Positions 26,536-28,546 of a DNA stretch of 64,000 nucleotides are shown here, piece after piece; positions within the stretch are counted from its first letter, which is position 1; every line of letters starts with the position of its first letter. A program made the position numbers and the translations under genes. The notes under the pieces are model-generated. The model was not told the origin of the DNA, did not search any database, and saw nothing but the letters and a program-made list of their open reading frames with translations. The DNA is from Anthracocystis setariae (taxonomy: Eukaryota > Basidiomycota > Ustilaginomycetes > Ustilaginales > Ustilaginaceae): positions 248,001-312,000 of the forward strand of contig CAKMXJ010000008.1 of NCBI GenBank assembly GCA_928724745.1, written 5' to 3'.

Positions 26536-26890
26536 ATGTCTGGTAAGTTGGTATCGAAGCGTCTCTCTGTTGGCGATCGATAGCTAACGGCGCTCATCTT
26601 GTTCTTGATCTGCAGGTGGGGATAGCATCAAGGTGTACTACTTTGCCTCTGTACGCACTACCATTGGACGATCTTTCGACGTCTTCTCTCTACCCTCGAC
26701 GCCGTATGCGCTTTCGTCTTTGATCACGCTCATCTCGGATCGATACTCGGACCAGTCGCAATTGACGGCCATTCTCAATACGTGTAGGTGGAGTGTCGAT
26801 AACACGCTTATCGAACTTGACGAGATTGTACACTGGCAACTCCAGGGTGGCGAGGAAGTGGCTGCGATCCCTCCGGTCTCTGGTGGTTAA
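26536..26890 (+). CDS. MOCS2A: Molybdopterin synthase small subunit (MoaD/MOCS2A)
   Basis: Ubiquitin-fold sulfur carrier of molybdenum cofactor synthesis; its C-terminal Gly-Gly is thiocarboxylated and donates sulfur to precursor Z with the large subunit. Two exons: 26536-26542 (only ATG TCT G) and 26616-26890, with a 73-nt intron (GTAAGT ... CTGCAG). The joined start is MSGGDSIKVYYFASVR, a typical MoaD first strand. The protein has 93 residues and ends IPPVSGG, the diagnostic di-glycine at the extreme C-terminus. The next gene starts 13 nt after the stop on the same strand, which suggests a shared transcript. The tiny first exon is inferred from splice signals and frame, but without it there would be no ATG. 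Confidence 0.9.
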
Positions 26891-26903
26891 ACTGCGCAAA
26901 AAA

Positions 26904-27689
26904 ATGTCGACGCCGATTGAAATCAACCCAACAGATCAAGAGGCGGTGACGAAACCCCTCCTCCCCTCCCCGAGCCTATCCAGCTTCTCGGCACATCACT
27001 ACTCGGCAGCACCGAGCGGCGTCGACTCGAACCTCGTCATCCTCCTCCACGGTCTCGGCGACACCGACACGGGCTTCTTCACCCTCGGCAAAAGCTTGCA
27101 AAACACACTGCCGCAGACAGCGATACTCACACTACAGGCTCCACTCACAATCCCGTTCCTGGAATCTCCGCATTGGATGTGGTACACGACGTTTGACGCG
27201 TTCGGCGAGATGCTCACCAAGCCGAACCCAACACACACGGTGGAGCTGCTAGTGCAAGTGGTGCGACATTTGACCGAGACGTGTGGATGGAAGGCGAGTA
27301 GCGTGCATTTCTTCGGGTTCGGTCAGGGCGCAACTATGGCACTCGAAACTCTGGTTGCATGGACAAAGCACCACACGCAGTCGGTGGGCAGTGTAGTTTC
27401 AGTGACTGGCGAACTCGTCTCACACCCCACCCTGGGGAAGCCCTCGACTACCCCCGTTCTGCACATCTACCGATCCAGGGTTGATATCCCCAGCGAATCG
27501 ACCAAATGGTCATCGCTGCGGAAAGCAACTTTGGCTCTGTCATTTAAGCGTCTGCCTCTGGGTGCGGATGGGAGCGATGAGGCGATGATCCGAGGAAACG
27601 AGTGGGATACGGTGATGCAGTTTTGGGCAAAGTTCTTCCGCAACAGATCGTCCTGGGAACTCTCGGGCGACGCTGTCTCGCTCCAGTAA
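26904..27689 (+). CDS. Alpha/beta-hydrolase of the phospholipase/carboxylesterase (APT-like) family, catalytic Ser replaced by Gly
   Basis: 261 residues from the ATG at 26904, 13 nt after the MOCS2A stop. The fold is recognisable: SNLVILLHGLGDTDTGF is the oxyanion-hole region of acyl-protein thioesterase/LYPLA-like proteins, followed by AILTLQAPL and WMWYTTFDAFG. The nucleophile elbow, normally GFSQGG, reads FFGFGQGATMAL, so the Ser is Gly. The DNA is clear (TTC GGT CAG). A late histidine position cannot be assigned with certainty. The protein is therefore probably a non-catalytic or altered family member; some fungal homologues may share the change. An extension of the frame upstream overlaps MOCS2A but starts with GTG and is not conserved-looking. 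Confidence 0.82.
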   Translation: MSTPIEINPTDQEAVTKPLLPSPSLSSFSAHHYSAAPSGVDSNLVILLHGLGDTDTGFFTLGKSLQNTLPQTAILTLQAPLTIPFLESPHWMWYTTFDAFGEMLTKPNPTHTVELLVQVVRHLTETCGWKASSVHFFGFGQGATMALETLVAWTKHHTQSVGSVVSVTGELVSHPTLGKPSTTPVLHIYRSRVDIPSESTKWSSLRKATLALSFKRLPLGADGSDEAMIRGNEWDTVMQFWAKFFRNRSSWELSGDAVSLQ

Positions 27690-27713
27690 TTGTAATTGTA
27701 ATGGTTTGGAGCT

Positions 27714-28351
27714 TCAAAAATGGTACAGAGTGCGTCCCTGCAGTTTGAGCGCATAGATCACGTCTAGTGTCCGAACCGTCTTGCGGTTACAGTATTCTAT
27801 ACCAGAGAAGGGGGATGAGTGAGACTCGGTGTTCCAGCGAAGCGAGCGGGATGGGGTGGGATGATTTGGCTTACCTGAGTAAACGATGGAATCGCAAATG
27901 GCACGTGTGAGAAAGTCACGCAGGATGAAGCGGGTTTCTTCAAACACTGTCCCTGCTATACCTACAGAGCGTGACGAAGAGAGGGTTAGGAGAGAGAGAT
28001 TGGGATGAAGACGGGAAAAAGGGGAGGGCAAGACTTACGAGTGACACCAGCTCGACGAGCGAGGCGGCGGAGGGAGCCTTTGGAGATGCGTTCGAGCGCG
28101 GTTCGATCAGCGCGAAAGCGTTTTTGCGCGCGTGCGGCTCGGCCCGATCCATAATTTGGCAGAGTCTTGTTGCTCTACACGGTTCCCCAAGATGTCAGTG
28201 GAAGTCGGAAAGGTTGATAGAGGGGTGAAGCGAGGGGGGACTTACAGTGAAGATTTCTATATTGCCAAGAAACGAGGAGGGGAGGAGGGTTGGATCAGTT
28301 GAGCTCAGCAGAGATAGAGTAAGTTAGCAGGGGGGACTCACTGGCACCCAT
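27714..28351 (-). CDS. Divergent histone H4 variant (five exons)
   Basis: Exons in transcript order: 28351-28342 (ATG GGT GCC A), 28256-28246, 28174-28039, 27961-27875, 27796-27714. All four introns (85, 71, 77 and 78 nt) have GT-AG ends and splice in one frame, giving 108 residues. The H4 fold is plain: SKGSLRRLARRAGVTRIAG, FEETRFILRDFL, then NRKTVRTLDVIYALK and LQGRTLY, in the exact H4 order and spacing. Compared with canonical H4, the Lys/Gly tail is replaced (only Lys4, Lys10 and Lys25 precede the core), KRHR becomes KRFR, the Lys20 position is Ala, Lys44 is Thr, Lys59 is Arg, Lys77 is Asn, His75 is Tyr, Arg92 is Leu, and the end GFGG is reduced to HF. The two micro-exons are less certain than exons 3-5. 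It ends 24 bp from the convergent esterase-like gene. Confidence 0.88.
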
Positions 28352-28546
28352 CACGATTGTCGAAGGACAGGTTGCACAGAGCATCAGACTTGGTGCAGGT
28401 ATATATTGAATCCAGAGTGGATGGAGTAACAAAGGTATGTGTTTGGTTCCGCACTACCACTCGATCATTTTATGAATGGAGCTACGATCAATTCCGCACA
28501 AAGCAAACAAGTCAGTCAAGCAAAATCCTACACCTCGGAACAATGG

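Follow-up and report, generated by a model that had tools for sequence, protein, structure and literature searches.

A divergent, intron-rich histone H4 variant in the smut fungus Anthracocystis setariae

One of the questions raised by the smut fungus Anthracocystis setariae concerns a small gene that looks like histone H4 and yet departs from it along its whole length. H4 hardly varies among eukaryotes, and few variants of it are known. What, then, is a gene that would encode the fold of H4 without its canonical tail, and is it a working histone, a histone-fold protein with another role, or a copy in decay? The gene lies in a stretch of 64,000 nucleotides that was analysed as a whole and is referred to here as the window, and coordinates given without a contig are positions in it. 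A preliminary description had proposed that five exons at 27714..28351 splice into an H4 fold.

That proposal, including its coordinates, proved to be right. The gene runs from 28351 down to 27714 on the minus strand, and its five exons join into an open frame of 108 residues (MGAKIFTSNKTLPNYGSGRAARAQKRFRADRTALERISKGSLRRLARRAGVTRIAGTVFEETRFILRDFLTRAICDSIVYSEYCNRKTVRTLDVIYALKLQGRTLYHF). Exon 1 (28342..28351, 10 nt) supplies MGA and one further base and is followed by the donor GTGAGT at 28341, whilst exon 2 (28246..28256, 11 nt) is flanked by the acceptor ATATAG and the donor GTAAGT. The remaining N-tail, the basic patch KRFR and the start of the fold with LARR are found in exon 3 (28039..28174, 136 nt), loop 1 and the long middle helix, with the clade signature RFILRDFL, in exon 4 (27875..27961, 87 nt), and loop 2, the last helix, the C-terminal GRTLYHF and the stop in exon 5 (27714..27796, 83 nt); all three are also detected by tblastn with canonical H4. 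The four introns (85, 71, 77 and 78 nt, in phases 1, 0, 1 and 1) are without exception GT-AG, with the donors GTGAGT, GTAAGT, GTAAGT and GTAAGC, and three of them hold a branch-like CTRAY motif, intron 4 being the one without. For intron 3 a second AG six bases downstream was considered as an alternative acceptor; its use would cost two loop 1 residues (IA), and the first AG was kept.

Is this locus an H4 at all? Residues 16-108 of the spliced product match H4 chains in the PDB with E values down to 1.6e-24. The top chain, 6yov_B, aligns with the variant without gaps, and is itself one residue short after KRHR in comparison with canonical H4. As the exons had been picked for their likeness to H4, a test free of splicing was needed, and the genome's own canonical H4 was therefore compared by tblastn with the raw 64 kb window. 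This returned two segments in the right order, 28150-28031 and 27959-27717, with a joint E of 1.9e-13, the next match having an E of 0.11. With the canonical H4 of the same genome the variant shares 54% identity over 79 positions (canonical 22-100, no gaps). The PDB matches, the unspliced search and the clade of orthologues described below thus uphold the preliminary description of a divergent, intron-rich H4 variant, and since the tail is replaced and no lysine stands at the place of Lys20 the gene is a variant of H4 rather than a canonical H4.

The Pfam comparison is less straightforward. At E values up to 1 the variant matches CENP-T_C (E 0.00098, 19.6 bits against a cut-off of 28.1) and ABC_N (E 0.035) and nothing else, both below their cut-offs, and its fold is kept while surface and tails have changed, a combination that would also suit a histone-fold protein that has left the nucleosome for another complex of the CENP-T, CENP-S or TAF type. 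We consider such a departure unlikely. CENP-T_C is also the best-scoring family for canonical smut H4 (31.5 bits), whose score with PF00125 (21.2 bits) is under the cut-off of 26.4, so that the CENP-T_C match of the variant is no sign of CENP-T, and membership of that family was rejected at 19.6 bits. Furthermore, the variant retains the H4-type C-terminus GRTLY-x-F together with the DNA-contacting loop arginines, and the best 60 of its 89 PDB matches are all named H4. An H4 variant that still belongs to the nucleosome is the reading pursued here.

Such a gene is not confined to A. setariae, as protein searches found four orthologues. These are a protein of Kalmanozyma brasiliensis labelled 'Histone-fold' (P0001), UHOD_12180 of Ustilago sp. 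UG-2017b (P0002), a 'putative Histone H4 (putative)' of Pseudozyma hubeiensis (P0010) and the translation of a contig of 1,666 bases (P0004). The first two are annotated without exon 5, the third is missing part of loop 2 and the last is translated through the counterpart of intron 4; the absence of exon 5 and of the loop 2 part we take to be probable errors in the gene models. The variant is 79% identical to the K. brasiliensis protein (52 positions), 75% to that of Ustilago (52 positions) and 68% to that of P. hubeiensis (71 fold positions), and inclusion of the tails gives identities of 69% to the trimmed K. brasiliensis protein and 70% to the trimmed Ustilago one. A tree was built from 35 rows (5 variants, the 1 canonical smut H4 and 29 other H4 sequences selected from search lists, with no H4E among them), and in it the variants form one clade with a support of 100/99, a drawn stem of 0.81 and tips of 0-0.37 changes per column; its bootstrap had not stabilised, 21 of the 32 inner branches stay open and P0004 fills less than half of the columns.

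The orthologues also bear on the splicing. Exons 1 and 2 are backed by the annotated starts of P0002 and P0010, which read MGGKTFTS where MGAKIFTS is found here; the annotated K. brasiliensis protein has a different N-terminal start. At the exon 4 donor the read-through letters of P0002 and P0004 fit GGTAAG or AGTAAG, as inferred from the protein letters. Intron 4 (27797..27874, 78 nt) is a multiple of three in length and free of stops, and with its P0004 counterpart equally open, automated annotation may translate straight through it. This open intron may be the cause of the broken public annotations of the variant gene.

With regard to the spread of the variant among smuts, no row named Mycosarcoma maydis or Sporisorium was present among the best 120 of 5033 matches (7995 candidates scored, many of the rows nameless), whereas the same database does contain the neighbouring hydrolase from M. 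maydis and Sporisorium, from which it follows that the distribution of the variant may be patchy. For both the variant and the hydrolase of K. brasiliensis the longest contig is given as 563,724 bases, which suggests that the two are on one contig there, as they are here.

Upstream of the variant, on the same strand, is a gene for RNase H2 subunit C (PF08615, 55.6 bits), and the gap between it and the variant ATG (28352..28515, minus strand, 164 nt as the final RNase H2C exon is predicted to be spliced) presumably holds the variant promoter; a TATATA stretch can be read some 50 nt before the ATG. On the other side is a convergent gene for an alpha/beta hydrolase (PF02230, 60.4 bits), and with only 24 nt between its stop and that of the variant (27689-27714) the two transcripts probably overlap. 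The nearest named relatives of the hydrolase are those of smuts (Sporisorium, Ustilago, Mycosarcoma maydis, Kalmanozyma, Pseudozyma and Melanopsichium), at 59-65% identity, with other matches reaching 67%. Adjacent to the hydrolase on the plus strand, 26633-26904 contains a ThiS/MoaD-like frame ending in GG (PF02597), whose stop is at 26890; 13 nt past this stop, and likewise on the plus strand, comes the ATG of the hydrolase. The ThiS/MoaD-like and hydrolase parts are annotated as a single protein of 329 residues in Sporisorium graminicola (P0139). Two-gene transcripts do occur, MOCS2 being an example, and by analogy with it the ThiS/MoaD-like frame and the hydrolase could possibly share one.

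Which parts of H4 have been changed, and which retained? The canonical N-tail with Lys5, 8, 12, 16 and 20 is not found, in agreement with the earlier view that the acetylatable tail had been replaced. In its place is a tail seven residues longer, the start of which, MG(A/G)K-x-FTS-x-K-x-LP, is common to three species, and the only lysines before LARR are residues 4, 10, 25 and 39. The basic patch reads KRFR, RRYR, KRYQ and KRYL in the four variants that cover it, and in all four the stretch from the patch to LARR has 20 residues against 21 in canonical H4, so one residue is missing from the variants. The claim that Lys20 has become alanine depends on where this loss is placed. When the patches are aligned, which calls for a one-residue deletion, the place of Lys20 holds A, A, A and T; when the alignment is continued ungapped from the fold, which puts the variant patch one place later, it holds R, R, Q and L, and the residue here is then an arginine. 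Whichever alignment is used, none of the four sequences covering the place has a lysine there, be it replaced or deleted. An equivalent of Lys16 (K, R, K and K; Lys25 here) exists only with the patches aligned.

Over the aligned positions, the same non-canonical residue is found in all rows present (3 to 5 rows) at 14 positions, namely N25A, I26L, Q27E, G28R, A33S, S47A, I50V, G56F, V57I, K59R, L60D, S83T, V87I and R92L, and 28 positions are canonical in every row present, these counts being made on P0010 without part of loop 2 and on P0001 and P0002 without exon 5. The latter include R35, R36, R39, R40, R45, D68, Y72 and K91, as well as R95, T96, L97, Y98 and F100. The change of Arg92 to Leu is seen in all three sequences covering the position. 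At the C-terminus, GRTLYHF stands where canonical H4 has GRTLYGFGG, such that G99 is changed and the final two residues are absent, making the C-tail two residues shorter. Alignment to canonical H4 confirms the other substitutions of the preliminary description (His75 to Tyr, Lys77 to Asn, Arg92 to Leu and a C-terminal HF) as well as its list of what remains (the equivalents of Lys31, Lys79 and Lys91 and the KR-x-R patch). The Gly56 to Phe change of the smut variants also occurs, as ETRFVLRDFL, in an H4 protein with an H4-like tail and the source tag lgn (P0046).

The genome has a conventional histone set beside the variant. A search of it with H4, in which the best candidates only were scored, found one canonical H4 gene and the last exon of the variant. 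The presence of a canonical H4 elsewhere is thereby established (G000:C34:276083-276516); the gene's two exons are separated by one intron following Lys20, its tail is normal and its C-terminus is GFGA, and an H3 gene in divergent orientation (C34:273596-273958, minus) lies some 2.1 kb away. The variant has the fold and the DNA-contact arginines in common with this H4, and differs from it in having four introns, a replaced tail and a position away from H3/H4 neighbours. A study of histone introns in 24 fungi included Ustilago maydis (PMC3029354). Three H3-type genes were found, two H3 (on C34 and C32) and one CENP-A-like (on C8). The last of these, G000:C8:581975-582411 (L007, L008), has an enlarged loop 1, on account of which it looks like CENP-A, and lies on the same contig as the variant at a distance of about 306 kb. 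It was also the candidate for a second divergent H3 that might serve as the variant's partner, and was set aside in that role for its likeness to CENP-A.

Considered together, we favour the reading that the gene is a functional, protein-coding H4 paralogue, kept in several genera of the Ustilaginaceae, whose product would pair with H3 and form weaker nucleosomes, and give this joint statement a probability of about 0.6. Because the fold and the DNA-contacting arginines remain, pairing with canonical H3 and the wrapping of DNA are likely, with the retained loop arginines expected to bind the DNA. The H4 C-tail contacts both the chaperone Asf1 and the docking domain of H2A (PMC3439350), and Asf1 may handle the variant through the retained C-terminal RTLY-x-F; given that Asf1 was reported in the same work to bind H3/H4 in vitro even without the H4 C-tail, the motif is only suggestive of this. 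As to H2B, D68 and R92 of H4 are described as hydrogen-bonding to it, changes in them being thought to destabilise nucleosomes, and K91 as pairing with E71 of H2B (PMC8025322). Because Leu stands in the place of Arg92 and the C-tail lacks its final two residues, the variant would be expected to dock H2A-H2B more weakly, and the result would be nucleosomes or tetrasomes from which H2A-H2B is readily released. These nucleosomes would also be without Lys20 methylation and the usual sites of tail acetylation. Finally, the four introns and the location away from H3/H4 neighbours suggest expression outside the S-phase programme, probably weak or limited to a single life stage. That the variant could mark special chromatin, as was first proposed, is plausible. 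A further step, which we offer as a tentative and on balance doubtful proposal, is that smuts have independently evolved a replication-uncoupled, Lys20-unmethylatable H4, the nucleosomes of which would be poor in H2A-H2B or easily opened by virtue of Arg92Leu and the trimmed C-tail, for use in stage-specific chromatin such as that of spores or of growth within the plant.

The closest published case is H4E, reported from Pezizomycotina, basal Taphrinomycotina and Glomeromycota (Flipphi et al. 2024, PMC10878826), the group to which the Neurospora variant named as a precedent in the preliminary description belongs. In Aspergillus nidulans H4E (hheA) is nuclear and interacts with H3; on nitrogen starvation it is well expressed, and no phenotype was detectable on its loss in that report. 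Could the smut gene be a basidiomycete branch of H4E, inherited from a common fungal ancestor with its introns reshuffled? The kind of change is the same: a divergent, longer N-tail, altered modification targets, several non-canonical introns and a basic patch that is more or less kept, the last being matched by KRFR, RRYR, KRYQ and KRYL. Nevertheless, H4E of the Pezizomycotina typically has seven introns in phases 2, 1, 2, 0, 0, 0 and 0 with exons of 29-32, 16, 88, 60, 18 and 21 nt between them (PMC10878826), whereas the variant has four introns and inner exons of 11, 136 and 87 nt, the nearest agreement being 87 against 88 nt in other phases. Introns cannot exclude kinship, as their plans vary between H4E groups too, Glomeromycota having a single intron. 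The C-tail of H4E is longer whilst that of the variant is two residues short, and the synteny of H4E with nudA and svf1 in Eurotiomycetes and Dothideomycetes is replaced here by the immediate neighbours RNase H2 subunit C and the alpha/beta hydrolase. The report itself obtained no stable phylogeny of H4E, and its main text contains no words beginning 'basidio' or 'ustilag' (PMC10878826). Intron plan, C-tail and immediate neighbours speak against membership of H4E, descent from which seems improbable, and the Neurospora protein stands as a precedent of kind, with the Pezizomycotina intron plan and the long C-tail absent from the smut gene. The variant may accordingly be filed as an H4 variant working like H4E, membership of which is not supported; a separate origin is the better reading, made beside a tree that holds no H4E, and if true would make the variant the basidiomycete counterpart of H4E by convergence.

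Is the smut gene under selection or in decay? The uninterrupted frame had been advanced as an argument against a pseudogene, and this has been dropped, since 762 of 5000 neutral simulations to the same divergence also remain free of stops and an open frame is thus weak evidence. The conclusion nonetheless holds on other grounds, taken from the protein level. In comparison with one relative, P0004, 43 of 50 residues are identical where exons 4 and 5 can be compared (23 of 26 in exon 5), against 3 of 24 read-through residues in intron 4, which is no better than shuffled sequence (mean 5.2, with 970 of 1000 shuffles reaching 3). Residues derived in common point the same way. The variant is 68-70% identical to its relatives, while the hydrolase is 59% and 60% identical to its K. 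brasiliensis and P. hubeiensis copies, respectively, so the variant appears to evolve no faster than the enzyme next door, but far faster than H4. A decaying H4 duplicate that by chance is still open, for which an identity to canonical H4 that is extreme for this histone, the open simulations and the relatives' public gene models broken near intron 4 might speak, is therefore very unlikely in view of the contrast between exons and intron 4, the identities just given and the 28 positions canonical in all rows present.

The H4 paralogue kept in several smut genera seems to be a previously undescribed member of the small set of H4 variants, a survey of titles and abstract openings in the open literature having found no report of one in Basidiomycota. 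Gly56 to Phe and Arg92 to Leu are among the 14 changes common to this clade of H4 proteins, which are about half identical to the canonical form, and the clade reveals which portions of H4 are dispensable and which are indispensable; if the variant enters nucleosomes it would be a natural test of the roles of Lys20 and the H4-H2B contact. Other known variants provide a measure of how far it has gone. H4V of Trypanosoma brucei is likewise a divergent paralogue beside a canonical H4, is enriched at transcription termination sites and is 80% identical to its own canonical H4 (PMC10878826), in comparison with the 54% of the smut variant over its 79 positions. Human H4G also has an altered C-terminus, but is without the C-terminal tail region and is otherwise 85% identical (PMC10878826), whereas the smut variant keeps RTLY-x-F and has diverged throughout.
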